IMG/VR virus record: IMGVR_UViG_3300032309_000997 | Location: 1 to 39,347 of that record | Length of the DNA stretch: 39,347 nt | Source of the DNA: a virus | Strand: one strand, 5' to 3' | Shown here: one piece after another, positions 4,506-35,114 of the stretch | Position numbering within the stretch: position 1 is the first letter of the stretch | Layout of the letters: each line of letters starts with the position of its first letter | Program-made: the position numbers and the translations under genes | Notes under the pieces: generated by a model | Databases searched by the model: none | The model's input: only the letters and a program-made list of their open reading frames with translations | Told to the model about the DNA's origin: nothing

Positions 4506-4509
4506 TTAG

Positions 4510-4591
4510 TGCCCCCAGAGAGACTCGAACTCTCACGCCTCGCGGCAACGGATTTTGAATCCGTCATGTCTACCAATTCCATCACAGGGGC
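4510..4591 (-). tRNA. tRNA-Leu, anticodon CAA
   Basis: The minus strand folds as an 82-nt class II tRNA. The acceptor stem is GCCCCTG/TGGGGGC (two wobbles at the inner end) with discriminator A. The anticodon stem is ACGGA/TCCGT with loop TTCAAAA, anticodon at 4557-4555. The variable arm is long and the T arm is GAGAG-TTCGAGT-CTCTC. CCA is not encoded. It reads UUG codons, which are abundant in the late genes. It lies between terS (stop 4605) and terL (start 4505). Confidence 0.93.
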
Positions 4592-9018: not shown

Positions 9019-9441
9019 CTACGCAAGCACCCGCATCTCAGAAACCGGAACCAGAATCATCAACTCCACATCATTCGGCGCATCCGGACGATCAAAGCGT
9101 CCAGCCATAGTGCTTTTTCGAGCGTCTATTTCGGTGATTCGTTTGTACATCACAGTGTCGGTGAAGCGTACGATGAACAGTGGTGTTACGCCCAACCCTA
9201 GTGCTCCTTGCAGGAGGGTGATCCATTTGTGTGCGGATAGGTAGACGGTGGGGTATTGGGTGCTTGGATTGTTGCGTGTTTTGAGTTCGGCGATGAAGAC
9301 GGTACGTCCGTCTTTGATTCCGATGTAGTCCCATGCGTCTAGGTATCCGGTGCGGTGGACGGTGCAGTCCCATCGTGTTTCCATGAGGCTGGCTATTTGG
9401 TTTTCGCTCGTTGTGTCTTGCGAGCGTGTTCGGATGGGCAT
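9019..9441 (-). CDS. PD-(D/E)XK nuclease-fold protein, small
   Basis: This 140-residue protein has the layout of small phage PD-(D/E)XK (Holliday junction resolvase or VRR-NUC-like) nucleases: an N-terminal helix with E14, W-D-Y with D38, and I-A-E-L-K with E52 and K54. A final beta region follows. It probably cuts or processes branched or damaged DNA. It starts in a TAATG overlap with the 41-residue basic gene. The exact subfamily cannot be told from sequence alone. Confidence 0.7.
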   Translation of the reverse strand: MPIRTRSQDTTSENQIASLMETRWDCTVHRTGYLDAWDYIGIKDGRTVFIAELKTRNNPSTQYPTVYLSAHKWITLLQGALGLGVTPLFIVRFTDTVMYKRITEIDARKSTMAGRFDRPDAPNDVELMILVPVSEMRVLA

Positions 9442-9963: not shown

Positions 9964-10488
9964 TTAGTCCCAGATAATCTCATCGTCATCATCACTAACA
10001 GCAGCAACACCCGTAGTTGGCAAGTCGGGAATAGGTTGGCCCACGTTTTTGATTTCGTCCCACGTAATCGTAATCTGATCCCCCGGAATCGGCTCGCCAT
10101 ACGGATCAAGACGATCAGTGCTAACGCTTCCCTTGTCACGCACCTTAGTCTTAAACTCTGACCAACTGATTGGGTGCATGTCCTTGTTCTCCATGCACTC
10201 CTTAGAACAAAACTCCCAACCCTTCTTATCCTCTAGCCACGCACTGACAGCGCCACGATGAAATGGTTTGCTGCACGCAGTACACCAACCAACACGAACC
10301 TGCGGAGCAGGATCATACTTCTGCTTTAGTGCTGCCCATGCTGGCGTGCCACGCAATCCGTGAATGTCAGCAGCGACACGAGTGCGCAGTGCGCCTACGT
10401 TATTAACTGCCTTGCCTTGTGCGCGGTAACGATCAATGACTTCGCCTAGTTTATCTTCAATGGCATGGTCTAGCCAATGCTCATCCAT
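9964..10488 (-). CDS. Hypothetical zinc-binding early protein, 174 residues
   Basis: From ATG 10488 the product has a helical N-terminal domain (W-L-D-H-A-I-E-D-K-L-G-E-V-I). A zinc-ribbon-like centre follows (C-T-A-C, then C-S-K-E-C, about residues 68-102), and the tail is acidic (D-D-D-D-E-I-I-W-D). It overlaps the RuvC-like gene by 8 bases. A replication-accessory role such as helicase loading is conceivable from context, but no motif shows it. Confidence 0.7.
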   Translation of the reverse strand: MDEHWLDHAIEDKLGEVIDRYRAQGKAVNNVGALRTRVAADIHGLRGTPAWAALKQKYDPAPQVRVGWCTACSKPFHRGAVSAWLEDKKGWEFCSKECMENKDMHPISWSEFKTKVRDKGSVSTDRLDPYGEPIPGDQITITWDEIKNVGQPIPDLPTTGVAAVSDDDDEIIWD

Positions 10489-10951
10489 CTGCTCGTACCA
10501 TCGTAGCCGTGGCAATGGCGATAGCATCAGCAGCGTCCTGATTTTCCGGCGCGTCTACGCCAGCCTCAGCACAAGCAGCAAGCGCCCATTCCATCACGCT
10601 CTCCTTGCCGCCCTGCTTGATACCACAAGCAGACCGCCACTGTGTTGCTACAAGGATTTTCTGATCAGCATCAGGCCACAAATAATCACAAATGCTTTCG
10701 ACCTGACCAAGCGCCATTGCTGCGCGGATGCTGCCCAACTTGTTTGGCCCAACGAACACAGCCTCTAGTCCAATGGTTTTGATGTTGGGGTGTTGTTCCA
10801 TTACGTCTTCTAGCGCATCGCTGCGCAGTCCGGGTGTAACCCATTCCTTGCTGTCGAAGATGATGACTCCGTGGTGTAGCGAGTCGTCAGAGATGACGGC
10901 CCATCCGATGCGGAGTGGGCTTACGTCTAGGCCAAGGTACTTCTCACTCAC
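10481..10951 (-). CDS. RuvC-like Holliday junction resolvase
   Basis: This 156-residue protein has the RuvC RNase H fold signature: G-L-D-V with D9, I-G-L-E with E63, and the terminal A-D-A-I-A-I-A segment with D139 and D142. Spacing and length (about 155-170) fit bacterial RuvC. It resolves four-way junctions made during recombination-dependent replication or before packaging. The start is GTG 10951, overlapping the 98-residue gene upstream. It works in the same pathway as the SSB, the RecT-like protein and the nucleases of the same operon. Confidence 0.85.
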   Translation of the reverse strand: MSEKYLGLDVSPLRIGWAVISDDSLHHGVIIFDSKEWVTPGLRSDALEDVMEQHPNIKTIGLEAVFVGPNKLGSIRAAMALGQVESICDYLWPDADQKILVATQWRSACGIKQGGKESVMEWALAACAEAGVDAPENQDAADAIAIATATMVRADG

Positions 10952-11244
10952 TTAGGATTCCTAATCGGTAGGGTATGACGAGCAGCAGCGTAGATAAGGT
11001 AGTCAAGAAGTTCCTCGCGAATGTTCTTCGCATAATCATCATCACTCCACTTATCCCATGTCGAATCAGAGTTGGCGTGCTGCATCCTGCCAATCTCGTA
11101 CCGCTCTCGACACTCCATCTTCAGCGTGTCCCACGCATTATCAACTTCGCAATACTGTTGATCGTTAAACAACACCATCACTTCTTCGAAGAGGTCTTCT
11201 AATGCGTTGCCTAGTTGCTTTTCAATTCTAATCCACTGAGTCAT
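10948..11244 (-). CDS. MazG-like helical protein (tentative)
   Basis: The 98-residue protein is all-helical with an acidic centre and R-E-E-L-L-D-Y-L-I-Y-A-A-A-R-H near the C-terminus. The E-E-x-x-D arrangement (E77, E78, D81) resembles the metal-binding helix of MazG-type nucleotide pyrophosphohydrolases that phages use to reshape nucleotide pools. The match is short, so the assignment is tentative. Confidence 0.6.
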   Translation of the reverse strand: MTQWIRIEKQLGNALEDLFEEVMVLFNDQQYCEVDNAWDTLKMECRERYEIGRMQHANSDSTWDKWSDDDYAKNIREELLDYLIYAAARHTLPIRNPK

Positions 11245-11363
11245 TTAACTTCTCGCTTTGCTTTGCTGATGTTCTTTTCGGATAGTTTGGTGTTGCACCA
11301 CGAACAAATCTTGCGAGCATTCAACAGGGTTTCTGCTGAACACGTGTCGCACCATACCCTCAC
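11241..11363 (-). CDS. Zinc-ribbon micro-protein, 40 residues
   Basis: A GTG at 11363 opens a frame with two clean knuckles, C-D-T-C and C-S-W-C, 12 residues apart, and then a basic tail (K-A-K-R-E-V-K). It overlaps both neighbours (GTGA upstream and ATGA downstream). The two CxxC pairs can bind one zinc. It is probably a small regulator or accessory protein; no family is recognised. Confidence 0.7.
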   Translation of the reverse strand: MRVWCDTCSAETLLNARKICSWCNTKLSEKNISKAKREVK

Positions 11364-12298
11364 GCGCCAACCTCACAATACTTGATAGGCGCACCATCCG
11401 CATCAGCACTGTGCTGCATTGCGTGGAGAACGCGCATCACATCATGAGACAACCCATAATTATCAATCTTGTATTCGCAGTGAATCACAAACGAATCAAG
11501 GCTTCTTGTGATCATGTCTGGTTCGTGACGAAAGCGAACCTCAACGCTACGCCCTTGGCTACGAACCTCAACAAACTTCTGGTTCTGTTCCCATGCTAGT
11601 TCGATACGCGGGTTTGCGATCTCATCATCGGGAAGTATGCGCAATAGTGCGTACTTCTGAGGGTATGTAGCGTTGTAACTTGCGGACAAGAAAGCAATCT
11701 GATCCCCATTGTTGTCGCAGATTCGTGAGATTACTTTAGTTCCATCAACGTTACAAGAGATATTTATATCCTCTTCATGAAAGATAGTAAACATCGTTGC
11801 TACGTCGTGTGGGAGCAAGTCTAGGATGACCCCTTCCGGCTTGGGTGGCGTGACAACGTGCCTGCTGAGGCTGATGTTGTGAGCCGTGCCTAGCGCCAAG
11901 ATCATTGAGTCAATGAAATACAGTTCGGGTGCCGCTAGTTGCGTGTAATCAATCATCCACGCAACCTTGTTTTCGTTTCGTGCTTTGAAAATATGATCAT
12001 GCTCGGTAAGGCTCATTGCTCCGGGCTTCATGCAGAGAACATCTTTGCCACGATTCATTGCTTCGACGCTTAGCGTGGCGTGGTGCTGTGGCGTGGTGCA
12101 GATAACCACAGCGTCGTGGTCTACGTTGTCGGCAATTGTCGGGTATGACTCGCCAACGGTCATTCCGCTTACGGTTATTAACCGTTCATAATCAGTGTCA
12201 ACAATGCCAACAAGTTCGTAGTCCTTGTGTCGCATGATGCGTTCTCGATACAACGACCCAAAGTATCCATTGCCAACAAGGATAACTTTCACTTCCAT
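11360..12298 (-). CDS. Gfo/Idh/MocA-family NAD(P)-dependent oxidoreductase
   Basis: This 312-residue protein has the Rossmann motif G-N-G-Y-F-G (residues 9-14) with D34 after the second strand. T-P-Q-H-H-A is at 69-74 and M-K-P-G-A at 90-94, the usual place of the E-K-P motif with K91 conserved. The C-terminal half fits the alpha/beta substrate domain. Relatives oxidise or dehydrate sugars and nucleotide sugars (glycan biosynthesis). It overlaps its neighbours on both sides and sits in a recombination operon, where such an enzyme is unexpected. The substrate cannot be predicted from sequence. Confidence 0.85.
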   Translation of the reverse strand: MEVKVILVGNGYFGSLYRERIMRHKDYELVGIVDTDYERLITVSGMTVGESYPTIADNVDHDAVVICTTPQHHATLSVEAMNRGKDVLCMKPGAMSLTEHDHIFKARNENKVAWMIDYTQLAAPELYFIDSMILALGTAHNISLSRHVVTPPKPEGVILDLLPHDVATMFTIFHEEDINISCNVDGTKVISRICDNNGDQIAFLSASYNATYPQKYALLRILPDDEIANPRIELAWEQNQKFVEVRSQGRSVEVRFRHEPDMITRSLDSFVIHCEYKIDNYGLSHDVMRVLHAMQHSADADGAPIKYCEVGA

Positions 12299-12729
12299 GT
12301 CCCTTCGCCACGAAACCCAATCATCGGGCTACATTCCCACGCCGTCCAGCCATAACCCGGATACGTACGCTCGGCCCACTGATACAAGCGCCACGCGGCC
12401 CACAATTGTTCGACCGGCGTAGCCTTAGCCATATTGTCCGGCTGTCCTTTGCGTTTAAAGTCTCGCCAATTCTGAGTAGTCATTCCCATACCACCCCTAA
12501 AACTATAATTATATTCTTGCTTCCAAGCAATGCCGTGCCAGCCACCGCCACCACGAGACGGTTGTTCGCACTTGGCAATAGCAATGAACGTCATGTAGTG
12601 CGGTGGGTAAGGATTGTTCTTGATTGCGCGTGGCGCTGGTCGCGTTTGCGGCATTGCCAACTCTGGCGACAACAATGCAAGCGCCATGCACACTACGCAA
12701 ACAATGACCAGCGCAACGACCGCTTTCAT
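12289..12729 (-). CDS. Rpf/lysozyme-like muralytic protein with N-terminal signal or membrane anchor
   Basis: The 146-residue protein begins with a basic residue and a hydrophobic stretch (A-V-V-A-L-V-I-V-C-V-V-C-M-A-L-A-L-L, residues 3-20), i.e. a signal peptide or anchor. The mature part has the layout of the resuscitation-promoting factor transglycosylase domain: I-A-K-C-E (E about 54), W-H-G-I-A-W, G-G-M-G-M-T-T-Q-N-W, A-A-W-R-L-Y-Q-W, and W-x-A-W-E-C-S near the end. It would cleave the actinobacterial cell wall or remodel it during infection. Its ATG overlaps the SSB stop. Confidence 0.75.
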   Translation of the reverse strand: MKAVVALVIVCVVCMALALLSPELAMPQTRPAPRAIKNNPYPPHYMTFIAIAKCEQPSRGGGGWHGIAWKQEYNYSFRGGMGMTTQNWRDFKRKGQPDNMAKATPVEQLWAAWRLYQWAERTYPGYGWTAWECSPMIGFRGEGTWK

Positions 12730-13103
12730 CAGAAAGGAATGTCGTCGTCCGACGCGGCGGGATTGCTCATCGTCGTCTGCGGCTTCGCATTGTCATTCTT
12801 GCTGCCAAGCATGATCAAATCTCCGCCAACTAGCGAGTACGCAGTGCGCTTGTCGCCATCCTTCTCGTACTGCCGCCACTCAAGACGACTACCGGCAAGA
12901 CAGATTTGAGCGCCCTTAGTTAGATACTGCGCTGCGATCTCGCCGGTCTTGCCGAACAGGGTGGCGTCAATGTATCCCGGCTCGTCCTTCTTGTGGTTCC
13001 ACGCAAGGCGAAGGCGCGTGTACGGGTTCCCGCTTGCTGGGACTTTCTGTTCCGGGTCGGCAGTGAGCCTGCCGATAAGAGTTACCTGACACATGCTGCT
13101 CAT
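12729..13103 (-). CDS. ssb: Single-stranded DNA-binding protein
   Basis: A 124-residue OB-fold SSB starts at ATG 13103 (GGAGG site) with M-C-Q-V-T-L-I-G-R-L, the typical first strand. It shows the usual P-Y-T-R-L-R-L-A and G-S-R-L-E-W segments and ends in the classic acidic tail D-D-D-I-P-F, which binds partner proteins. Its ATG overlaps the stop of the nuclease gene upstream. It protects ssDNA during recombination and replication. Confidence 0.9.
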   Translation of the reverse strand: MSSMCQVTLIGRLTADPEQKVPASGNPYTRLRLAWNHKKDEPGYIDATLFGKTGEIAAQYLTKGAQICLAGSRLEWRQYEKDGDKRTAYSLVGGDLIMLGSKNDNAKPQTTMSNPAASDDDIPF

Positions 13104-13942
13104 TTGTTTCCTCCAATCGTCACTGGAATGACGGTCTGCGCTGCCGCTCCATGCGGACAACGGTTGTAGTAGTCGCAGTATTTTCCACTGCAAACCCAAG
13201 CGTCTTTGTCCAAACCTGTTGGCGCAAAGTTTCCTGTCTGGCACCACCGTTCAAGGTCGCTCATCCATCCAGCGATCCTGTGTAGGACGGTGTTCTTGTT
13301 TGGTGCGGCAACGTGTGTTGCGCCAATCTCAATCTTTCCACCCAAGCGTGCGTGTCTCCAACCAACAGCGGTTACGTCGCCTTCGGCAAGGATGCTGTAG
13401 ATACCTAACTGTGCGTCACGCGCAGCGTCCTGTTCCGTCCACTTCTTACGCGGCGACAGACTGCTCTTCACATCAGACACGCAGATACCATTGTCTGCTG
13501 CTTCAATCAAGTCAATGTATCCAATGAGTTTGGCGTCGGTTTCTTCGAAAGATCTTTCGACATAAACCTGTGTTGCGATAGGCTTCATGCCAATTGTGGA
13601 TGCGGCGTATTCGCGCAATGCAGTCTCGCCTCGTCCAAGGATATCGATAGGCGCTTCGCTCAAGTCGTAATCAATTACGTCACCGTCACGGTTTGTATCG
13701 GCAGGGTTTTCCCACGCTTCAACAAACACTTCGGTTGGGTCGGCAATCTGATTGCCAGCGATACGATTGTCGTGCAGTTGGCGAGTCGCTTCGTCAAATG
13801 CAATGCCAGCCAACAATCCAGCGCCAACAACTCCCTTGATGCCTTCGATGTAGCGATAGTAGAACTTCATGCCGCATCCGGCCCTGCCGAATGCTGTGCT
13901 GAACTTGCTTGCGCTTACTTCTCCGCCGGGAATGCTAGTCAT
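13100..13942 (-). CDS. Cas4/RecB-like PD-(D/E)XK exonuclease with Fe-S cysteines
   Basis: The 280-residue protein carries the RecB-nuclease motifs G-Y-I-D (D144), V-S-D-V-K (D157, K159) and Q-L-G-I-Y (Q178, Y182). C23 together with C251, C256 and C262 (C-x4-C-x5-C) matches the four-cysteine iron-sulphur pattern of Cas4 and AddB-type nucleases. It probably resects dsDNA ends to feed the RecT-like annealing protein two genes upstream. It is not associated with any CRISPR array. It overlaps both neighbours. Confidence 0.85.
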   Translation of the reverse strand: MTSIPGGEVSASKFSTAFGRAGCGMKFYYRYIEGIKGVVGAGLLAGIAFDEATRQLHDNRIAGNQIADPTEVFVEAWENPADTNRDGDVIDYDLSEAPIDILGRGETALREYAASTIGMKPIATQVYVERSFEETDAKLIGYIDLIEAADNGICVSDVKSSLSPRKKWTEQDAARDAQLGIYSILAEGDVTAVGWRHARLGGKIEIGATHVAAPNKNTVLHRIAGWMSDLERWCQTGNFAPTGLDKDAWVCSGKYCDYYNRCPHGAAAQTVIPVTIGGNK

Positions 13943-14591
13943 TCTTGCCTTTCATTAGTTCGCGACTATTGTCTCGCTGTCGTTGCATCGCAGCGTATCT
14001 CTCCCACGTAGCAACGTCAAGAATTGTATCGTCCCACGTTTCCTTCTCGCCACTTGCACCAGTGTTCTTGCCAAGCAAACGAGCAGGACTACCAGCAACT
14101 TTCTGATAAGGGGCAATGTCGTTAATAACGCTAGAGTTCAGTCCGATCATGGCGGACTCGCCAATCACCGTCCACGGATGAGTAACTACACCTTGTCCGA
14201 ATGTGACGCGATCACCTACCGTTGTGTGTCCACCAAAGACCGCGAAACTACCGATGGTGCAGTCCTGCCCGATCCATACGTCATGAGCAATGTGGCATCC
14301 AGCCATGATGAGCGTGTCATAACCGATGACTGTTTCGTCAATAATGCCTTGATGAACTTGTGCTAACTCTCTTACGCAAGCGCCTTTGCTGATGTGAACT
14401 CCCTTGTCTGCGCGGTCTGCGGTAACGGGAGATGGGTATACGCCGTGGTATTGGGGAGGTGCGCCAATTATTGCGCCGTGCCCAACGTATGCGTTCGTCC
14501 CAATGTACGCTGGGCCGATGATGACGGCAGAGTCTTCGATGTGTGCGCCTACGCTGATAGTTACTTTGCCGTACGTGTCGTCAATGATCAT
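13935..14591 (-). CDS. LpxA-like left-handed beta-helix acyltransferase
   Basis: This 218-residue protein is made mostly of hexapeptide repeats (I-G-x-x-A-x-I-G style), giving a left-handed beta helix. It keeps M-A-G-C-H-I-A-H-D, in which H103 corresponds to the catalytic His of LpxA. It also keeps an A-P-P-Q-Y segment like the A-D-P-Q of LpxA and a V-A-G-S-P-A-R-L-L-G end. Members transfer acyl or acetyl groups to UDP-GlcNAc or related sugars. The C-terminal 40 residues are polar and helical. It sits between the RecT-like and Cas4-like genes with overlaps on both sides. Confidence 0.85.
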   Translation of the reverse strand: MIIDDTYGKVTISVGAHIEDSAVIIGPAYIGTNAYVGHGAIIGAPPQYHGVYPSPVTADRADKGVHISKGACVRELAQVHQGIIDETVIGYDTLIMAGCHIAHDVWIGQDCTIGSFAVFGGHTTVGDRVTFGQGVVTHPWTVIGESAMIGLNSSVINDIAPYQKVAGSPARLLGKNTGASGEKETWDDTILDVATWERYAAMQRQRDNSRELMKGKND

Positions 14592-15481
14592 GCTGCCAAC
14601 TCGCGCATCACAATGTCCAACTCAAAGCACCGCACGCCAAGCGTGTCAGCCAACGACTCGTACACCTTGTCCTGAGTCAAGCGCCCCTCGGGAAGATAAC
14701 CGTGCAACTTCAACAACTTGCCAGCCTCAGCCTTATCCTCCTTCGACAATGCTGCAAAGAACGCCTTGGCCGCTTCAATCCAATCATTCGTCGGATCAAT
14801 CACTTCGCCGTCAAGCGTTTCCTCAGCAGCGTCAAGAGTTGCAATGGCTTCAACAACCATCTCCTCCACCTTTTCCTCAACAGGCTTCAGTGTTAGGGTA
14901 GGGGAGGTAGGGAGGGCGGCTTCTGAGGAGGCCACCTGTGAGGGGGAAGAGCCGCCCTCCCTGCCAGTGAAACCGGATTCGTCGCCCAACTCCTCCGGTG
15001 TGTAGATGCTACCACCAATTACCTCTGGCATAAAAGCGTTCACGCCTTCGGTAACTGCCCGAGCGGTACGCATCTGACGCGGATACTTTTGCCACGTGCC
15101 ACGACCACCAAGGCCCATGCGCTTCGCATCATCAGTATCACACTTGCTAGTGCCAATCACTTCACCATTGATTGTCCACTCGATCTCCACGCGCTCTTCG
15201 TCGCGCTGAAGATACTTGAACGAGTATCGGTCAGTGCCGTGCGGCCCAGTGTAGTTGCGCACCATGCCAAGGATGGCCTGATACGAAAGGGTAGGCTTGC
15301 CCTCTACGATATGTACGTCGCTGATGCCGCGCAAGCCTAGTCCTAGTTCGCGTGCGATGCGCAGTTTGACTACGCCAGCGGCAGCGTCGCGAATGTCCTT
15401 GTAGAACCCGGACTGTGCAAGCGCATTGGCAAGACGGATGTCTTCGTCAATGTCGCTACGAACAACAAGATCATTACTCAT
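14588..15481 (-). CDS. RecT/Bet-like single-strand annealing protein (probable)
   Basis: I start this 297-residue protein at ATG 15481 (GGAGG site 5 bases upstream). The N-terminal half (about residues 15-165) has the pattern of a phage family I recall as RecT-like: A-L-A-Q-S-G-F-Y-K-D, A-R-E-L-G-L-G, V-E-G-K-P-T-L-S-Y-Q, E-I-E-W-T-I-N-G, W-Q-K-Y-P-R-Q-M and Y-T-P-E-E-L-G. The C-terminal part (165-297) is acidic and linker-like. With the Cas4-like exonuclease and SSB it would form a recombination module. The subfamily is not certain. Confidence 0.7.
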   Translation of the reverse strand: MSNDLVVRSDIDEDIRLANALAQSGFYKDIRDAAAGVVKLRIARELGLGLRGISDVHIVEGKPTLSYQAILGMVRNYTGPHGTDRYSFKYLQRDEERVEIEWTINGEVIGTSKCDTDDAKRMGLGGRGTWQKYPRQMRTARAVTEGVNAFMPEVIGGSIYTPEELGDESGFTGREGGSSPSQVASSEAALPTSPTLTLKPVEEKVEEMVVEAIATLDAAEETLDGEVIDPTNDWIEAAKAFFAALSKEDKAEAGKLLKLHGYLPEGRLTQDKVYESLADTLGVRCFELDIVMRELAA

Positions 15482-15513
15482 CATGGCCTCCAAGCCTTTG
15501 ATTGGTTCGTACT

Positions 15514-18599: not shown

Positions 18600-21500
18600 T
18601 TAGCCGCCAACAATGGTTTTTCTTCCAGTGAAACCAGATGGCGCAACAGGCGCAGCAGGAACATTAGGCGCAACAGGAGTAGCAGCCGGAGCGGGTACCG
18701 GAACACTCGGTTGAACCTGAAAACCAGAAACGCTCTGTTCATACGTCGCATTATTCGCAGCAGTACGAAGAATGTTATTCATCTCCTTCGTAAACCTAGA
18801 CTTCGAATTATTCGCCATAGCAGCAAACTGCGACTTCTCTACATCACCATGACCAATAACCCACGCCGGAGAACCACCCATCACAAACCGCATCGTCAAA
18901 GCAATCGCATTCTCAGGCGACAAATCCTGAGTCAACTGGTAAATATCACGACCCGGCACATCACCAACAGCAACCTGCGGCGTCACATTCAACGGCAACA
19001 CACCCTCAGCGCCACGCAAATACTTAGGACTCGGCGACAACAACAAATTACCACTAGAAACCTGACCACTAGAAGTCACCGCAATACTTGACAATGGCAA
19101 CATCCCCTGAAGCGTATTCACGTAATACACACCAGCATCACGCGAATACGCATCAATCGAATTACCCGCTTGATTCTTCACCTCACTAATAGCCGTCGGC
19201 CCACCAACCTGCTTAGCCGTACCCGTCAAAAGACTGTACCCAACCTCAAACAAATTACGAAACAACGGATTCAACATACCCGCCGTTGCATTAATCACCT
19301 GCTCGTCATAACCACTAGACCCACCAGCAAACGACGCAGGCGTACTAAACGGCGCAAGCGAACCAGCGTGCCACGCAAGAATATAATCCTGCTGAATATT
19401 CGTTTCAGGATGCTCCTGCATAAAAATCGGAACAACATCTTGCATCCACGACGGATACACACCATGCCGCGCCAAATACTCATTACCAATCTCACCCAAA
19501 CGCTGCAAAAACAAACGACGCAACGGATACTTCAACGGCATCGTCACAAACGTCAAGCGAAGAATATGCCGATACCACTGCTGAAACGGCACCGCAATGC
19601 GAAGAAGCGTGTTCGCCTTACCACCAGCATGAAGATCACCAAGCCACTGATACGAAAAATCAGTAAACTCATCCGCCAACGCACGCAACCCCTCATCCGT
19701 AGCGCGACCAGACGCAAGCATATCCAAATACTCCTGCGCCTTATCACTCAACTGGCGACCAGTCGTCCACGTCTTCACAAACCCATCATCCGCAAGACGA
19801 GAAGCAGCCGGATACGCCTTCGAATACCACACAGCAAGACGCCCAAAATCCTCAGCAATACCATTAAACGTACGCATCGTATTCATCCACCACGCCAACC
19901 CAGCAAACGGATCATCAAACGACAAACCACGCCCCAACCCAACATCAAGCGTCCCACTAGGCAACCGAGAACGAATACCCCTAAACGACATCTCCGTTGT
20001 CAACGACGCACCAAAACCCTGACGCAACGCAGCAGGAGCCGCCACATCACCATACTTCAAATGACGATACGCCAAATAAAACGAACGCGGCCCAGCACCA
20101 GCAAGCGCCGCAAGAATCGCACTACCCACAAGATTCGCCATACCAGTACGAGGAAAAATATTCAACGTAAACGCACGCCACTGCTTCGTCAACTTATCCA
20201 CAGCACCAATAGCACCAGTCGGACGATACGCAATATCAGCCAACTCCTTCGTCACATAATCATGCAAATGACGAGGAATCAGATAATAAGAACCACCCTT
20301 CTCAACCATCGCAGGCGTAGTTTCCTGCGCAAACAAATCAGCAAGCGTCTGCTCACCAGCATCCTCAATATCAACAGTACCCGTCTGCGCCGTCGTCCGA
20401 GAAGGCTTACGACGATCAGCACTAATCGCAACCCAATCACGCGCATCACTAACAACACGATCACCCTCAGACAACCTAATCGTCTTACCCGACTCATCAA
20501 CATACTCAAACGCATGATTCAAAACAGCCGCATCACGCGCATCAACATTATCCACACGAATCGAAATCGCATCAACAAACCGCTGCATATCCTGAACCCA
20601 CGCAGCATTACCATACAAACGCCCAGTGTCAGTAAGAAGACGCATCCAAAGATTCCGCAAATCCTCCTCACCACGCGCATACACAACACCACTATTCTTC
20701 ATTGTACGACTCGGCGGAATCCACGAATCAGCAGACACATCAATCGGCTTACGCAACCGCTCAGCCTGCTTAGAAGCACCAAACGAAGCGCGACGAGTAC
20801 CAACCCACAACACAGGATCAGCGCCCGTCAACTCCGCACGCGCAATCCACTCAGACTCAACCTCATCACGCATCTTCGCAATCTTGAACCGAACAGGAGA
20901 CACGCGATACTGCTTCAACTCAACAGCAATCTGCTCACTAGCAGCATCAAGAACTACCTTGACATTCGCATCATTCACAATCGGACGACCACGCTCAACA
21001 ATACGAGCAGCCTCACGACGATTCAACTCTGCCTGACGCAACGCCGCCTTACGCATCTGACGAACCTCACGAATCGTCGCCACACTCGGAGCAACCTCAC
21101 GAGCAACAACACGAGCCTGCAACTCGTCTAGCCGAGCGCCACGCTCAAACGCCGCACCAACCAACTCCTTAGGCAAACCAGTATCAATTGTCTGAGCAAC
21201 ACTCTTACGCCCAAACCCAACAGGCTCAACAATGCTCCTATCACGACCCTTATACAACTTACGCTTACCAACCATTCGCTCAACACGAGAAACACGAACC
21301 TCAGCATCAACAAGCGCAGCAATATCATCCTTCGTAATTTGCACCCCATCCTCAACCTTACGGCGCAACTCGCCCAAAACACTCAAAAGCGCAGGCCGCT
21401 CAGCCGCAACAACCTCACCATACTTACCCTTACCACTCATCAACGAACGCACATCAGCACCCGTCACAAACTCAAAACGCCTCTCCAACGCACCCAACGC

Positions 21501-24500
21501 CCCAACAAAACCACTCGGAGAACGACGCAACCCACCAGCCTGCTGAACAAGAGAATCAATTTCAGCACGAACCGCATCCAACTGGCGAGCAGCAGCACCA
21601 GCCTGAGCAGCACTCGGAGCAGCATCGCGCTCACCAACAAGACGCGCCTCCAACGCACGCAACTCAGCAGCACGAGCCTCCAACCGCTGCGCATTCTCAA
21701 CAAGCGCACGAGCCTCAGGCTGCTCAATACGACGCGCAACAACAGGAGCCATCTCACCACTACGAATCGCAGCAACAACACCATCCTGCTCACGCATCGC
21801 ACGATCAGCAACACGCAACGCATTAGCCCCACTCAAATCACCACGCTCAACAACAATATTGTCAAGAAGCGCCTGCATCTGAGCCTCAACCTCAGGCAAC
21901 CCAGCACGCCGCGCCTCATTACGCATCTCAACAATCGTCGCACGCAACGCATACACCTTCATCGCATACTGCCGAGCAAACTTACGAACATCACCAAGAC
22001 GACCAGCCTGCCGCGCAGCACTCATCGAATCCAAACGCTTCTGCAACTCGCCAAACAACGCCTGCCGCTTCTCATCCAACTTCTCCAACTGAGTAACCGG
22101 AGCATTCTTCTCAGCAGCAAACGCCCTAGCCTCAGCAACACGACCAGACTTCAACTCCGCAGCAGTCGCATCAATATGATCACGCATCGAAACAAGATCA
22201 CGAACATACCGCTGCTGCCGCATATCCGAAACAAACTTCACAACACGACTATCAGCAGGCATCTCAATCGTCGCAACATCACGCTCATCCCACAAATTAC
22301 GACGAGTAACCGCAACACGACCATCAGGCAACAATTCAACACTCGTCACACGAGCAGGAACCTTCTCACCACCCAAACCAATATTGATGTAATCACCCTC
22401 ACGCAACCCGCCCCACGTAACCGGACCACCACCCTTAGTACGACGCACAACACGCAACGACTCTGGCGAATCCATCCCCTTCAACGCATCAATAACCGAA
22501 GCCATCAACATATCCGAATCACGACCAAACGGACGCGCCACATTACGCGCATTCTCAATAATCACAGGATCAAGATCAACACTCGCCAACTTCTCATAAT
22601 GATCCGCATACGCACCAAACAACGCCTTACTACGCGGAGACACAGCCTCATCAGCAGACGCACGCCAAAACGCAGCCACATCACCCAACGAATAATCAGC
22701 ACCATCAGGAGTCTTAGGCGCACGCAACAACTCAACAGCCAACCGCTCACGCTGCCACCAACTCAACCCCTTAGCAGCCTCACGCAACGAATCAGTCGCA
22801 TTCGTCACAACAGCATCACGACGAGTAGCCATACCATGCAACCCACGCTTCGCCGACTTATTCACAACACGAGTCGCCAAACCCTCAAGCGTTTCATTAC
22901 CAGAGCGCAAACCACGCTCAACAAGCCGCGCCTTCGACCACAAAAACGCATTACCCCACAAATTCTTATTTGTCACACCAACCGGCAACGAAAGCGTTTC
23001 AGGAGTAGACGCCTCAAACTCTCCACCAAGCGTCTTCTTCGTCACCGTACCAACCGTAGCCTTCACACTACGATCAGTCTCAGCCAACCGACCCAACCCA
23101 GCAAGCGCTTGACCAACACGCCCACTCTCAGCACTAGGCGCATACACAAAACGATTAAACGCCAACTGTGGAAGCGCCTCACCCGTACCACCAACCGTAC
23201 GAGCAACAGCACCAGCACCACGACCACTCACACCAACCGCAGCACTACCAATCAGAATCGCATCCAACGGACGCTCCTGAACAAACGACGAAACAGCAGC
23301 CTCAACACCACGCCGCTCAATATCATCAGCCAAATACGTATACGGAGCAACAAACTGCTCACCCAACTCAACAACCTTGCCAAGATCACCAGACTTAGCA
23401 GCACCAACAAGCGTCGAACCAACAGCCACCAAACCAGCAGGCATCGAAGCCAACTGCGCCGTCTGCCGACGCAACCCAGCACCAACCTCACTTGTCGCAT
23501 CAGTCATACGAGTAAACGCGCGACGAGCCAACTCCGCATCCGTATAATCCCGCGGAATCGCAATATCCCAACCATTCCTCCGAGCCTGATCCAACAACAA
23601 CTTACGCTGCCACTTCTCCAACGGACCAAGAGCAGAACTCTCCTGCACCATCTGAATATCCGAAGCAGACGCCTGAGACTTAGCAGTATCAAGAAACGAC
23701 TGCATTGCAACCGCATCCTCTTTAGTCTTCTGACGCGCAATCAACTGGTCATACGTCAACTTACTACCAGCACTAGCCTTAGGCGCTAACCCAGCAGTAT
23801 CAGAAAAGAAACTCGCAATCGTATTATCCGGCGTCGAATAATACTTCGCACCAACACCAGACAAAAATGGCGACAACCAAGCAGGAACATCACCAACCTT
23901 CCCGCCAGCATCCTCAATCTTCTTACGTTTCTCCGGCGACATATCAGTCGTAAACTGAAGATTTGGCAAAGCACCAATCTGCCGAGCAAGCGTTGTCTCC
24001 TTTACACCCGGAGCGGGACGCCCAAGAGGAAAACGCTCAGCCTGAGCAGCAGGCGTAACAGCCTTCATCGAAGCGCCCTTAAAACCAACCGTCGGAAGAC
24101 GCGACTGACCAGCACTAGGACGCGCACCCTCAACAGGACTAGCCAACCACTCGCCAGCCTTCTTCAACACACCAACTTCAGCCTCTACACCACTAGCCTT
24201 ATACGCAACCGGAGCAACACGCTTAACAGCCTCAAACTCAGCACGCAACGCAGGAGTCGTACCAGTAACCTCCAACGCCTTATCCACAACCGGAGCAACA
24301 ACCTCATTTGCCTTACCAATACCCTCAATAAGACCCTTACCAGCACCACCAAACAACACCGGAGAAACAAGTTTCCCAACCTCAAGACCACCACGAACAC
24401 CACGATCAAGAGCATCAAGCGCATCCGCAGCACTCGCATACGCAGGACGCTTCTTAGCATTCAAATCAACAGCACGACCACGCGAAGACGTAGGAGTGCG

Positions 24501-24782
24501 CAACAAACCAGACTCAGAAAGAGCCTGCCGCACATCAACATCACCCTCAATATCACGACCCGTACGCGCCGTATACAAATCCTTCAAAGCCTGATGCTCA
24601 GCAGCACCAGCCGGAGAAGCAAGAAAATCTGGCGTCAACCCCGCACCATAACGAGGAGACAAACCAACATCACCAGCCGGAGCCTTAGGCTTCACACCCT
24701 TCGGCTTCGCGGCAACCGGCTTCACACCACCAGTCTCAACACCAAGAACTCGTCTACCAGTAAGAGTCGGCTTACGCGCCAT
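18600..24782 (-). CDS. Giant internal virion (DNA-ejection) protein, 2060 residues
   Basis: This is the largest gene, one-sixth of the genome. The N-terminus is basic and Pro/Gly-rich (first 30 residues). Long Arg/Ala/Glu helical stretches follow, with many A-A-R-Q-L-type heptads between about 900 and 1250. A hydrophobic region is near residues 1535-1565 (I-F-P-R-T-G-M-A-N-L-V-G-S-A-I-L), and an F-Q-Q-W-Y-R-H-I-L-R-L-T-F region is near 1740. The end is Pro/Ala-rich. Its place after the other internal proteins equals T7 gene 16, which is much shorter (about 1318). I see no lysozyme motif. The start has TAGACT 6 bases upstream and no Shine-Dalgarno site. Confidence 0.75.
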   Translation of the reverse strand: MARKPTLTGRRVLGVETGGVKPVAAKPKGVKPKAPAGDVGLSPRYGAGLTPDFLASPAGAAEHQALKDLYTARTGRDIEGDVDVRQALSESGLLRTPTSSRGRAVDLNAKKRPAYASAADALDALDRGVRGGLEVGKLVSPVLFGGAGKGLIEGIGKANEVVAPVVDKALEVTGTTPALRAEFEAVKRVAPVAYKASGVEAEVGVLKKAGEWLASPVEGARPSAGQSRLPTVGFKGASMKAVTPAAQAERFPLGRPAPGVKETTLARQIGALPNLQFTTDMSPEKRKKIEDAGGKVGDVPAWLSPFLSGVGAKYYSTPDNTIASFFSDTAGLAPKASAGSKLTYDQLIARQKTKEDAVAMQSFLDTAKSQASASDIQMVQESSALGPLEKWQRKLLLDQARRNGWDIAIPRDYTDAELARRAFTRMTDATSEVGAGLRRQTAQLASMPAGLVAVGSTLVGAAKSGDLGKVVELGEQFVAPYTYLADDIERRGVEAAVSSFVQERPLDAILIGSAAVGVSGRGAGAVARTVGGTGEALPQLAFNRFVYAPSAESGRVGQALAGLGRLAETDRSVKATVGTVTKKTLGGEFEASTPETLSLPVGVTNKNLWGNAFLWSKARLVERGLRSGNETLEGLATRVVNKSAKRGLHGMATRRDAVVTNATDSLREAAKGLSWWQRERLAVELLRAPKTPDGADYSLGDVAAFWRASADEAVSPRSKALFGAYADHYEKLASVDLDPVIIENARNVARPFGRDSDMLMASVIDALKGMDSPESLRVVRRTKGGGPVTWGGLREGDYINIGLGGEKVPARVTSVELLPDGRVAVTRRNLWDERDVATIEMPADSRVVKFVSDMRQQRYVRDLVSMRDHIDATAAELKSGRVAEARAFAAEKNAPVTQLEKLDEKRQALFGELQKRLDSMSAARQAGRLGDVRKFARQYAMKVYALRATIVEMRNEARRAGLPEVEAQMQALLDNIVVERGDLSGANALRVADRAMREQDGVVAAIRSGEMAPVVARRIEQPEARALVENAQRLEARAAELRALEARLVGERDAAPSAAQAGAAARQLDAVRAEIDSLVQQAGGLRRSPSGFVGALGALERRFEFVTGADVRSLMSGKGKYGEVVAAERPALLSVLGELRRKVEDGVQITKDDIAALVDAEVRVSRVERMVGKRKLYKGRDRSIVEPVGFGRKSVAQTIDTGLPKELVGAAFERGARLDELQARVVAREVAPSVATIREVRQMRKAALRQAELNRREAARIVERGRPIVNDANVKVVLDAASEQIAVELKQYRVSPVRFKIAKMRDEVESEWIARAELTGADPVLWVGTRRASFGASKQAERLRKPIDVSADSWIPPSRTMKNSGVVYARGEEDLRNLWMRLLTDTGRLYGNAAWVQDMQRFVDAISIRVDNVDARDAAVLNHAFEYVDESGKTIRLSEGDRVVSDARDWVAISADRRKPSRTTAQTGTVDIEDAGEQTLADLFAQETTPAMVEKGGSYYLIPRHLHDYVTKELADIAYRPTGAIGAVDKLTKQWRAFTLNIFPRTGMANLVGSAILAALAGAGPRSFYLAYRHLKYGDVAAPAALRQGFGASLTTEMSFRGIRSRLPSGTLDVGLGRGLSFDDPFAGLAWWMNTMRTFNGIAEDFGRLAVWYSKAYPAASRLADDGFVKTWTTGRQLSDKAQEYLDMLASGRATDEGLRALADEFTDFSYQWLGDLHAGGKANTLLRIAVPFQQWYRHILRLTFVTMPLKYPLRRLFLQRLGEIGNEYLARHGVYPSWMQDVVPIFMQEHPETNIQQDYILAWHAGSLAPFSTPASFAGGSSGYDEQVINATAGMLNPLFRNLFEVGYSLLTGTAKQVGGPTAISEVKNQAGNSIDAYSRDAGVYYVNTLQGMLPLSSIAVTSSGQVSSGNLLLSPSPKYLRGAEGVLPLNVTPQVAVGDVPGRDIYQLTQDLSPENAIALTMRFVMGGSPAWVIGHGDVEKSQFAAMANNSKSRFTKEMNNILRTAANNATYEQSVSGFQVQPSVPVPAPAATPVAPNVPAAPVAPSGFTGRKTIVGG

Positions 24783-31286: not shown

Positions 31287-31669
31287 TACTCGTCCATACC
31301 CTTCGGACGAAAAGGATCAACGCCACGGTGCATAACGCTGTGCATATCAACCGTAACCTCAGAAGCACACGTCGGGCACAAGCCCTGCGTCACCATCTTA
31401 AGAACCTCATCGCGATTACGCATCGGTTCCCACTCATTAGCGATAGGCCGAAACGAGCGCACATTCTCAATACACGGACGCGCCGGGAACACACTCAAAC
31501 ACACACCACACGCAAGACCCTGAGCCAAACGATCAGCATCTTCCTGCTGATACTTTCCCTTCAAATACCACATAATGCTGCGCTGAGGCTCGCCACTTGT
31601 CAAGTCATACGTTTCCTCAGCGTGTGCATCAATCGGCCTACGCCACGGTTCTACTCCGACAACAGTCAT
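31286..31669 (-). CDS. Zinc-ribbon protein in the head-tail module, 127 residues
   Basis: The protein has C-G-V-C and C-P-T-C knuckles about 43 residues apart (near residues 54-57 and 97-100) and a helical polar remainder. It overlaps the glycosyltransferase stop and the adaptor start, so it is made with them. A zinc-stabilised minor head protein or a partner of the glycosyltransferase is possible. No family is recognised. Confidence 0.7.
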   Translation of the reverse strand: MTVVGVEPWRRPIDAHAEETYDLTSGEPQRSIMWYLKGKYQQEDADRLAQGLACGVCLSVFPARPCIENVRSFRPIANEWEPMRNRDEVLKMVTQGLCPTCASEVTVDMHSVMHRGVDPFRPKGMDE

Positions 31670-33231
31670 CCTAGTGCCTTAGTATACCTGTTCCGCAACG
31701 ACTCATTACCAACAAAACGATCCCGTTTCACATGAAACATACTACGACGAATCATACGCTTCCGTTCGCGCTCATCATTCAACAAGTCTCCAACCGCCCC
31801 AGCGAACCCCTCAGGACCATCAACGCGAATAATCGAATCGTTCGGAACGCGCTTATACGCCTCACTATTGCTGGCAATAAGAGCAGCACCACTCATTGTA
31901 AACTCAAGCCATTTCAAATCACTCTTGCAACGGGTAACATCATTATCAACTACTGGCGCTAAACCAATACTCCACTTAGACAACACGCGCCTATACGCCG
32001 CCACGCTTGGCGTAAAGCCAAAATGCGTATACGCAAAATCCCACTCAGGATCAAGCCCAACAACATGAACCTCAGCGCCGACCATACTCGCATACCGCAT
32101 CGCGTCCTCAACAAGATGCAAATCATCAAGATGATTCGTACTTAAAACACACCCAACAATCTGTTTACGCGAAGAAGGCTTAGGCCAATCAAACGGATCA
32201 ACCGTGTTCTCACACAACACCACATTCGGATTAACTTCTCCGTACACATCAACCAATGCTGGAGTAGCGCAAATAACATAGTCGGCCTCTTCCACCATCC
32301 GCTTATGCGACTCTTGACGCTCTCCCCACATCTCACCATTCTTCCGATGATACCGACCAACAACTTCCTGCAAATCATCAGACAAATAATTATCATCAAC
32401 ATCAATCACACGCTTCTTGCCCAACTTAGCACCAAGATCCCACAACTCTTGCGCATCACTATTCGGATACTGGTAAACCCACGCATTAGCCTGATGCTCA
32501 TCCTGAGTATCAAAAGAAATACGAACAGCCGAATCCGTAGTACGCGCAGCCAACTCGCACCGAACATACCCAGTACCATCCATCCGCCACTCATAAAACA
32601 CAGCAGGAACAGACTCGCGCTTCTCATACGGCGCAAGATCAGCCCACGTCATCTCCATCTTCGCAGCCTCACGCACCGTCGAACGATGCAACCCGTCAAG
32701 ACGCTGCCGATACCCATACCGCGCAAGAGGAGCAGGAGCAAGACGATAACCCGCCTTCGCAACACGGTACATCAAATCCCAATCCTCAATCACCGTATCC
32801 GTCCAACCACCAACACTTTTCAACACCTTGGTTTTAATTAAGAACACGCCACACACATTCTTATCCTGAATGCGCTTAAGCGACCACGGCTCAACAATCA
32901 TCCTAAAGCGCTGCGCACCAAACCCAAGCATCCACGGATACGCACCATCATAATCAACCGCTGCTTCCCACAAACGCCACAACGTCTTCGAATCAACCAC
33001 ATCATCAGAACCCATCACAAACGTGTACTTTGTCGTGATCGTATCCAACGCAGCATTTAACGCTAAAGCCATCTCATGCTTACCAGCATTCTTCGCAATA
33101 ACCACACGCACGCCACGCGGCAACGACCGCAAAGTCTCGCGCAGAAGATCCTCATTCTCACCATGCCACGGAATAAGGACCGTCACATGCCGCCTAACAG
33201 CCGCCTCATACGCGGCAATGTTGTGATGCAT
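31666..33231 (-). CDS. Two-domain glycosyltransferase (GT-A then GT-B like)
   Basis: The 521-residue protein has an N-terminal GT2-like domain: V-T-V-L-I-P-W-H (16-23), the D-x-D-type G-S-D-D (74-77) and I-E-D-W-D-L (148-153). From about residue 245 it continues as a GT4-like GT-B domain (V-I-D-V-D-D, I-C-A-T-P-A-L, L-C-E-N-T-V-D, W-S-I-G-L-A-P-V, and G-A-A-L-I-A-S-N). The motifs look intact. It overlaps the upstream (TAATG) and downstream genes and sits between the capsid and tail-adaptor genes, so it is expressed with virion genes. Its target could be a virion protein or host glycan. Confidence 0.88.
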   Translation of the reverse strand: MHHNIAAYEAAVRRHVTVLIPWHGENEDLLRETLRSLPRGVRVVIAKNAGKHEMALALNAALDTITTKYTFVMGSDDVVDSKTLWRLWEAAVDYDGAYPWMLGFGAQRFRMIVEPWSLKRIQDKNVCGVFLIKTKVLKSVGGWTDTVIEDWDLMYRVAKAGYRLAPAPLARYGYRQRLDGLHRSTVREAAKMEMTWADLAPYEKRESVPAVFYEWRMDGTGYVRCELAARTTDSAVRISFDTQDEHQANAWVYQYPNSDAQELWDLGAKLGKKRVIDVDDNYLSDDLQEVVGRYHRKNGEMWGERQESHKRMVEEADYVICATPALVDVYGEVNPNVVLCENTVDPFDWPKPSSRKQIVGCVLSTNHLDDLHLVEDAMRYASMVGAEVHVVGLDPEWDFAYTHFGFTPSVAAYRRVLSKWSIGLAPVVDNDVTRCKSDLKWLEFTMSGAALIASNSEAYKRVPNDSIIRVDGPEGFAGAVGDLLNDERERKRMIRRSMFHVKRDRFVGNESLRNRYTKALG

Positions 33232-33956: not shown

Positions 33957-35114
33957 TTAGTAGCCCGTGATGCCCGAGATGATAGCGTGCTTCTTCTCAA
34001 GGCCGATCTCCAACGACCACTCGGTCAGATACTCCTGCTTGACCGAATCCTCGTCGTTAGCCTGACGATCAGGCTTCAGCACCGTGTCGCGGAGCGGACG
34101 CATCGTCACGTCCTCCATGTCCACGACAACACCGATGCCGCCGTACTGGTTGCCCGTGGACTGGAAATCGTACCAGTCACGCTTAACCATGATCTGCACC
34201 GTTGCGCCCGAAGCGCTCTGGTACTTCGAGAGCGACACACCGTACGTGTCGATGCTCGGTGCCGGGGGAGCCAACTTGCTCTGCGGGAACGAAGACAGAG
34301 CCGACGCCACCAGCGGCGAGCAGAACATAACCTTGTTCTGCGAACCATAACGGAACGCCTTGCGAAGGAACGTTTCGAAAACGCTCTCCGTCAGCGTGCC
34401 AACACCAGAAGTCACGTTCGACGTAACGTACTGGTACAGACCACCACAGTAGCCAATCGGTGCGCCACCAGAAGTGTTGAGATCGCGCACGCCCCAGAAC
34501 ATCGTGTTCTCCAACTGGCGCTTATGCTCAATCAACTTCTTCTTAGCCTCGTTAGCAGGCTCCGGACCGCCATACAACTTCGAAGCGACCAGCGTGTTCG
34601 TAAAGCCGAACGGATCACGCTGAATCTGAGCGTAGTTGTAGTTGGCAACCTTCTTCGTCTGCACGAGCGTGCCAAGGGTTGCACCCTCAGCAGCCGCGTT
34701 ACCGATCTTAACGAGGTCAATGCCGCTCGCAGCCGAGAGAGCAGTGACGCCGCCAAGAGCACGGGTGACGTAGATGGTGTTAGCCGAAACAGCCGAGACA
34801 CTAGCGTTCTCGCCCGTCGTAGCAAAACGCACAACGTCGCCTGCGCGGAAGTACGTGCCAGTGCCAGTCGCAACCGCAATGGCAGTGTCAGCCGATGCAG
34901 CCGACGCGCTAAGCGTCGTAAGGCGCGGCATCAACTCGTCCGACAACCACTCAACTTTCTGCGAGTAAGCAGCGCGAGAAGCGGTCTTCTGAAGCATCGT
35001 CGTCAGGGGAGCCTCATCAGGCTCCAACTGCGCGATAGTGGGGGACATATCAACGACACGCTGATTGGACAGAATATCCGCGTCGTCAACGACCCCAGAG
35101 AGGATAGTAGGCAT
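33957..35114 (-). CDS. Major capsid protein (HK97-fold, SU10/DUF5309-like)
   Basis: The 385-residue protein begins P-T-I-L-S-G-V-V-D-D-A-D-I and has T-I-A-Q-L-E-P-D-E-A-P-L-T-T-M-L at about 26-41. A Ser/Ala/Thr-rich region follows (about 68-140), then an I-Q-R-D-P-F-G-F-T segment, a long helix K-K-K-L-I-E-H-K-R-Q-L-E-N-T-M-F-W-G, and an end rich in beta strands. These features fit the HK97-fold capsid family with DUF5309-like helix. The gene is bracketed by the scaffold gene and a strong terminator. Confidence 0.88.
   Translation of the reverse strand: MPTILSGVVDDADILSNQRVVDMSPTIAQLEPDEAPLTTMLQKTASRAAYSQKVEWLSDELMPRLTTLSASAASADTAIAVATGTGTYFRAGDVVRFATTGENASVSAVSANTIYVTRALGGVTALSAASGIDLVKIGNAAAEGATLGTLVQTKKVANYNYAQIQRDPFGFTNTLVASKLYGGPEPANEAKKKLIEHKRQLENTMFWGVRDLNTSGGAPIGYCGGLYQYVTSNVTSGVGTLTESVFETFLRKAFRYGSQNKVMFCSPLVASALSSFPQSKLAPPAPSIDTYGVSLSKYQSASGATVQIMVKRDWYDFQSTGNQYGGIGVVVDMEDVTMRPLRDTVLKPDRQANDEDSVKQEYLTEWSLEIGLEKKHAIISGITGY

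Follow-up and report, generated by a model that had tools for sequence, protein, structure and literature searches.

We examined two genes from IMG/VR virus record IMGVR_UViG_3300032309_000997 (39,347 bp, all of which we analyzed and call the window). One, gfo, encodes an oxidoreductase of the Gfo/Idh/MocA family, and the other encodes an acetyltransferase with a left-handed beta-helix. We propose, with moderate confidence, that both enzymes tailor nucleotide sugars for a glycan that the phage makes and most likely carries on its virion. In the lineage of the window, gfo is fixed and the acetyltransferase has been lost or gained by itself, so the acetyl step is optional. In another group of phages, relatives of the acetyltransferase are encoded in a cassette of glycosyltransferases (GTs) that starts at the gene for the major capsid protein (MCP).

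An exact terminal repeat of 123 bp shows that the window is a complete genome. The models that match its capsid, portal, and adaptor proteins are of the SU10 type. These are the genes under discussion, all of which are on the minus strand:

11360-12298, minus strand: gfo, NAD-dependent sugar oxidoreductase of the Gfo/Idh/MocA family, GnnA/WlbA-like, 312 amino acids (Pfam, GnnA profile match, model)
13935-14591, minus strand: left-handed beta-helix sugar N/O-acetyltransferase, LpxA-like but not LpxA, 218 amino acids (Hexapep; H80, H100, H103, and H138; AGSPAR)
31666-33231, minus strand: two-domain GT with a GT2-like N-terminus and a GT4-like C-terminus, 521 amino acids (Pfam, PHROG)
33957-35114, minus strand: SU10-type MCP, the candidate glycan acceptor (PF17236, 1.2e-46)
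14588-15493, minus strand: RecT-like annealing protein, the upstream flank of the acetyltransferase insertion point (phrog_561, 1.2e-15)
13100-13942, minus strand: Cas4-like PD-(D/E)XK nuclease, the downstream flank of that point (PDDEXK_1, 4.7e-15)
12729-13160, minus strand: SSB, single-strand DNA binding protein (PF00436, 3.9e-18; phrog_44)
12289-12729, minus strand: 146-amino-acid protein with a hydrophobic N-terminus; its end is overlapped by the gfo start codon (alignment)
10948-11244, minus strand: 98-amino-acid protein, between gfo and the ruvC-like gene
10481-10951, minus strand: RuvC-like Holliday junction resolvase, the end of the operon stretch considered (phrog_159, 3.2e-10)

The recombination operon is transcribed in the order recT-like gene, acetyltransferase, cas4-like gene, ssb, 146-amino-acid gene, gfo, 98-amino-acid gene, ruvC-like gene. 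A first-pass annotation, made from the letters alone, had described the oxidoreductase and the acyltransferase as interleaved, with overlapping frames, among RecT-, Cas4-, SSB-, and RuvC-like genes. Both open reading frames (ORFs) are real, Pfam confirms both families, and the surroundings are as described. The recT-like gene and the acetyltransferase overlap by 4 bp (ATGA), the acetyltransferase and the cas4-like gene by 8 bp, and the 146-amino-acid gene and gfo by 10 bp. The two genes are indeed interleaved within the operon, although gfo does not adjoin ssb, as the 146-amino-acid gene lies between them.

Families, folds, and conserved residues

The Gfo protein matches Pfam GFO_IDH_MocA (PF01408) with E = 3.3e-16 (60 bits, against a cut-off of 24). 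Its AlphaFold2 model is confident, with a mean predicted local distance difference test score (pLDDT) of 92.6, and has the two domains of the family: an N-terminal Rossmann domain and a C-terminal alpha/beta domain, which match known structures over the whole length (Z up to 33). We built a profile from 15 phage homologues, and its best match among PDB sequences was GnnA (7bvj, 1.9e-21), which is a UDP-N-acetylglucosamine (UDP-GlcNAc) 3-dehydrogenase according to the title of the entry. When we compared folds with VIA-align, the model scored Z = 32.7 to GnnA and 32.1 to WlbA with UDP-GlcNAcA, and many other Gfo enzymes tied with these. The phage protein resembles GnnA and WlbA/WbpB in its length, its catalytic lysine, and its HD motif, but it is just 17–18% identical to them. 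It scored 48 bits against the family model for UDP-GlcNAc 3-dehydrogenases (NCBIfam NF040723), whose cut-off is 450 bits. Lys91, Asp160, and His164 are invariant among its relatives.

Another difference from GnnA and WlbA/WbpB is that the EKP motif is altered (to xKPG) and is followed downstream by a DYT motif. The same xKPG and DYT signature is found in the Gfo proteins that are encoded beside the acetyltransferase in the other group of phages (one of these reads KPC). Sixteen other viral Gfo proteins that were found in the same scan lack the signature. In a tree of viral sequences, which has long branches and no cellular members, the xKPG/DYT group is separated from nine of those 16 proteins with support of 96/92.

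A normal EKP without DYT is seen in the viral Gfo genes of L099, L101, L105, L106, L108, L110, L112, L117, L123, L124, and L127, and likewise in those of L100 and L126. L100, L110, and L126 are very large viral contigs (246–309 kb).

The acetyltransferase matches Pfam Hexapep (E = 2.4e-20), and its model (mean pLDDT 83) has the coils of a beta-helix and one terminal helix (residues 193–217). Among NCBIfam models, lpxA scores best (E = 1.7e-34), at 119 bits instead of the required 231. As in LpxA, the protein has the coil architecture and the HIAHD catalytic motif. H103, which the first-pass annotation had pointed to as the catalytic histidine, aligns with His125 of E. coli LpxA. All of 16 phage homologues keep H80, H100, H103, and H138. 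In contrast to LpxA, the single helix replaces the full C-terminal helical domain (218 amino acids versus 262 in E. coli LpxA), and some substrate residues vary; the equivalent of His144 is phenylalanine in most relatives and tyrosine in some. Also, AGSPAR (an AGxPAR motif) aligns where E. coli LpxA has QGNHATPFG. PAR or PAK at this place is a mark of acetyl-CoA-dependent hexapeptide acetyltransferases.

The structure most similar to the acetyltransferase is 8e62 (Pcryo_0615 from Psychrobacter cryohalolentis), as found by phmmer, by profile search (2.1e-30), and by Foldseek (6.4e-10). The title of the entry describes an N-acetyltransferase that is needed to make a 2,3-diacetamido sugar. Like Pcryo_0615, WbpD, and WlbB, the phage protein is a left-handed beta-helix of similar length with a PA(R/K) motif near the C-terminus, and the bacterial pathway partner of these enzymes is a Gfo dehydrogenase. 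It differs in being longer, with a PQYHGVYPSPVTADRADKG loop and the C-terminal helix, and in having ~33% identity over the structural alignment; also, no aminotransferase accompanies it in the phages. By VIA-align, LpxA (Z ~25), LpxD, and 8e62 (Z = 24.5) are all within one Z unit of each other. The next distinct entry after 8e62 in Foldseek is LpxA from Leptospira (3hsq), whose title concerns sugar-nucleotide selectivity. Leptospira LpxA prefers a UDP-3-amino sugar, which is the product of the GnnA/GnnB pair. Together, the profile, Foldseek, and fold matches support action on nucleotide sugars and the comparison to WlbA/WlbB, both of which the first-pass annotation had proposed.

Against named phages, gfo and the acetyltransferase gave weak matches only, to unrelated or host-like records, and a library of viral structures contained no close match to the acetyltransferase. 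A scan of 84,980 species for a cellular source of the acetyltransferase matched just one contig end (L073:1-182), which was binned to a metagenome-assembled genome from the Gammaproteobacteria. It codes for part of a protein from this phage family, and the contig is probably mis-binned or chimeric, so we did not identify a cellular source.

The homologues of both proteins are under purifying selection, with ratios of nonsynonymous to synonymous substitution rates (dN/dS) that are mostly 0.08–0.4. Pairs that include the window's genes are near or at synonymous saturation, so we relied on closer pairs; dN/dS was 0.08–0.3 in pairs without saturation, L018/L020 and L077/L079 among them. Purifying selection, the presence of relatives, and the well-folded models (mean pLDDT of 83 and 93) rule out chance or decaying ORFs.

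Distribution in the lineage of the window and in other phages

To find relatives of the recombination operon, we scanned with gfo, cas4, the window's GT, and recT. This gave seven related contigs (G001, G009, G010, G011, G012, G013, and G022). All eight members of the lineage, including the window, have gfo at the same place, and the relatives' genes are 41–65% identical to the window's. The acetyltransferase is found in the window and in G013 (61% identical), at the same boundary between recT and cas4. In G001, G009, and G011, recT runs straight into cas4 with an ATGA overlap, which means that these contigs differ here by one gene exactly. G009 has an exact terminal repeat of 99 bp, so the absence of its acetyltransferase is not an artefact of truncation (G013 has an exact repeat of 123 bp). 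The phages with gfo alone do not encode a replacement that is recognized by Hexapep or GNAT-family models.

The acetyltransferases of the window and G013 are sisters in the tree (100/100 support). Judging by the identity of gfo, each of these phages has a closer relative that lacks the acetyltransferase (G001 and G012). This pattern suggests that an ancestral acetyltransferase gene was lost repeatedly; two gains at the same site seem less likely.

When we scanned IMG/VR with the acetyltransferase, we found 58 loci from another group of phages. At 90% identity, the 55 loci of sufficient length for comparison fall into 11 clusters. As far as the contig ends allow, all 58 fit the arrangement MCP, GT4, GT2, Gfo or SDR, acetyltransferase, GT2, connector, and an extra 219-amino-acid gene may stand between the acetyltransferase and the second GT2. 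The oxidoreductase before the acetyltransferase is Gfo in 36 of the 58 loci and SDR (Polysacc_synt_2) in 16; the contig is cut off in the other 6. The oxidoreductase and acetyltransferase genes often overlap by 4 bases, as in L018.

Named phages also have modifying enzymes in this slot. Pontimonas phage phiPsal1, a named relative whose host belongs to the Microbacteriaceae, encodes MCP, GT4, a methyltransferase, GT2, and a neck protein, and Microcystis phage Mae-JY09 encodes GT4 and an epimerase between MCP and the head-tail adaptor. Because of the methyltransferase and the epimerase, it seems that the slot between capsid and connector holds exchangeable modifying enzymes in general, which are mostly sugar-active.

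In the window, the two-domain GT is encoded near the MCP. It lies in the structural module, both in the window and in the contigs whose neighboring genes were mapped, just as GTs are beside capsid genes in the 58 loci. It is 63–84% conserved across the contigs of the lineage (one further short fragment is 91% identical), and all six of the full-length or nearly full-length genomes (the window, G001, G009, G010, G013, and G022) contain both gfo and this GT. We found no protein match for it in named phages. The two-domain GT is the likely user of the tailored sugar. The virion is probably the target of the phage-made glycan, because the 58 loci from other phages have the acetyltransferase in a GT cassette that runs from capsid to connector. 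The first-pass annotation had listed the virion among several targets, and the cassette favors it by analogy.

Glycosylation of virions has precedents in the mycobacteriophages Che8, Corndog, and Myrna, according to PMC12363180 and PMC11256854, which cite Freeman et al. 2023. In those phages, as we predict here, phage-encoded GTs decorate virion proteins. What differs is that sugar-making and sugar-tailoring enzymes travel with the GTs here, and that our phages are uncultured and known from their genes.

A proposed pathway and its alternatives

In bacteria, C3 of UDP-GlcNAcA is first oxidized by WbpB or WlbA (Gfo); WbpE (which uses pyridoxal phosphate) then adds an amino group, which WbpD acetylates (PMC10622841). 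The phage proteins correspond to the first and last of the three steps. We propose that Gfo acts like GnnA and WlbA/WbpB and oxidizes (or reduces) a ring hydroxyl of a nucleoside diphosphate sugar; the likeliest position is C3 of UDP-GlcNAc or UDP-GlcNAcA. Next, the beta-helix protein would move an acetyl group from acetyl-CoA onto the sugar, at either an amino or a hydroxyl group; the model for this step is the action of WbpD-type enzymes (and of Pcryo_0615, by its title) on a 3-amino group. For a 3-acetamido sugar to result, the host would need to aminate the sugar between the two steps. Finally, the two-domain GT would attach the sugar, probably to a protein of the virion. The direct basis for this proposal is the protein families, the folds, the conserved catalytic residues, purifying selection, the cassette, and the pattern of presence and absence; from these we infer the substrate, the cofactor, the position of the modification, amination by the host, and the target.

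Several observations weigh against this proposal. First, six of the eight members of the lineage lack the acetyltransferase. Second, none of the 12 phage records that we checked encodes a DegT/DnrJ aminotransferase, and the control genomes were positive. The full GnnA/GnnB or WbpB-WbpE-WbpD pathway is therefore not encoded by the phage, which leaves an amine supplied by the host or a hydroxyl group as the acceptor. Third, since so many folds tie, the fold of Gfo alone does not fix the substrate: comparison of the modeled folds cannot tell 3-dehydrogenases from other Gfo enzymes. Fourth, Gfo lacks the usual glutamate of EKP (Glu90 is methionine in the window's protein and alanine in other relatives). 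Fifth, in the window, the pair is in the recombination operon and away from the GT, and the link to the virion is one of co-occurrence.

A strict two-gene pathway is ruled out by the relatives with gfo alone and by the loci with SDR. The joint action proposed by the first-pass annotation thus fails as strict pairing, in both directions. Either gene being found alone in unrelated places would have counted against joint action; gfo does occur alone, yet always in its own fixed place. The conservation of active-site residues is supported: the three residues of Gfo and the four histidines of the acetyltransferase are kept; the equivalents of the EKP glutamate and of LpxA's His144 are changed.

The two enzymes might instead act independently. 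Gfo could carry out a modification of its own (for instance, epimerization, or ketoreduction as by KijD10), and the acetyltransferase could act on a different sugar, with the operon shared because both serve glycans. This is compatible with the virion as the target, as it opposes the relay from one enzyme to the other and not the tailoring of a glycan. The gfo-only members of the lineage and the SDR loci fit this explanation. However, Gfo and the acetyltransferase are adjacent, with the 4-bp overlap, in many of the Gfo-type cassettes, and both of the phage groups that carry the acetyltransferase share the xKPG/DYT clade of Gfo. We view independent action as a serious possibility, but a doubtful one.

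Another explanation is that the pair alters the host's surface polysaccharide early in infection, via the host's GTs, which would lead to superinfection exclusion or a change of receptor; the phage's GT would be unrelated. The placement of both genes in a presumably early operon, away from the GT, would make sense, and a possible cell-wall protein (12289-12729) adjoins gfo. Also, Acinetobacter prophages are known to encode O-acetyltransferases that change the capsule (PMC6586298). On the other hand, the acetyltransferase is always inside the capsid-connector GT cassette in the other group of phages, and every full-length or nearly full-length genome of the lineage has kept the GT near the capsid gene. 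We consider a role at the host surface to be rather unlikely, though along with independent action it is a main rival to our proposal.

It is very improbable that the pair alters a sugar on the phage's DNA, as part of a hypermodified base that escapes host nucleases. The two genes do sit among DNA-processing genes, and the operon of two relatives, L075 and L077, includes a likely cytosine DNA methyltransferase (as judged by eye). But none of five genomes encodes a protein from the thymidylate synthase/dCMP hydroxymethylase family, and there is none among the window's proteins that we scanned; moreover, the structural module is where the pair lies in other phages. The first-pass annotation had also rated DNA as the less likely target, and we agree.

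That the acyltransferase is a true viral LpxA, feeding the host's synthesis of lipid A, is hardly credible: lpxA is its best NCBIfam model and it has the fold of LpxA, but the score, the missing full C-terminal helical domain, and AGSPAR rule this out. The first-pass annotation had reasoned that a Gram-positive host would lack lipid A synthesis; because the protein is not LpxA, the host's capability for lipid A is irrelevant.

Returning to the tailoring of a phage-made glycan, a more specific version can be imagined, in which at least two unrelated groups of uncultured phages produce a dedicated nucleotide sugar of the 2,3-diacetamido type. A host aminotransferase would act between the phages' own 3-dehydrogenase and 3-N-acetyltransferase, the sugar would be attached to the capsid, and repeated losses of one gene would turn the acetyl step off. 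We offer this as a speculation that is less likely to be right than wrong.

Neighboring genes and implications

The 146-amino-acid protein has a CEQP...GGMGMT pattern that, by eye, is reminiscent of the Rpf cell-wall enzymes of actinobacteria. It has no match in Pfam, and neither do its relatives. The resemblance may hint at an actinobacterial host.

The probable cytosine DNA methyltransferase (identified by eye; L075:4320-5714 and L077:7335-8369) is encoded between the 98-amino-acid gene and ruvC. It is a further accessory gene of the same operon, present in these two relatives and not in the window. Elsewhere in the window, all on the minus strand, there is a tRNA-Leu (CAA) at 4509-4591, directly upstream of the gene for the terminase large subunit; a protein from the phage PDDEXK_14 endonuclease family at 9019-9441 (4.2e-22); and a protein of 2060 amino acids at 18600-24782, without a Pfam match. 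The counterpart of the latter in G001 has 1763 amino acids and is only ~31% identical over part of its length. By DNA, the window has no direct relative among named phages.

PMC12783922 reports that UDP-GlcNAc 3-dehydrogenase (gnnA) and wbpE are active auxiliary genes of viruses in lake sediment. As described there, these are single genes, unlike the pairing with an acetyltransferase and the capsid cassette that we describe. In a limited search of open-licence papers, we found no report of a module of Gfo or SDR with an LpxA-like acetyltransferase in capsid GT cassettes.

Our analysis corrects the tempting annotation of this gene as a viral LpxA for lipid A. So far, glycosylation of virions is known from a few mycobacteriophages and has been credited to GTs. 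The groups of phages that we describe seem also to carry enzymes that make or trim sugars, in one group beside the capsid gene, and the tailoring modules (Gfo, SDR, epimerase, or methyltransferase) appear to be interchangeable. If our proposal is correct, then the glycans of virions would be chemically diverse and would evolve by swaps of single genes, with effects on the survival of particles, their adhesion to cells, and their recognition.

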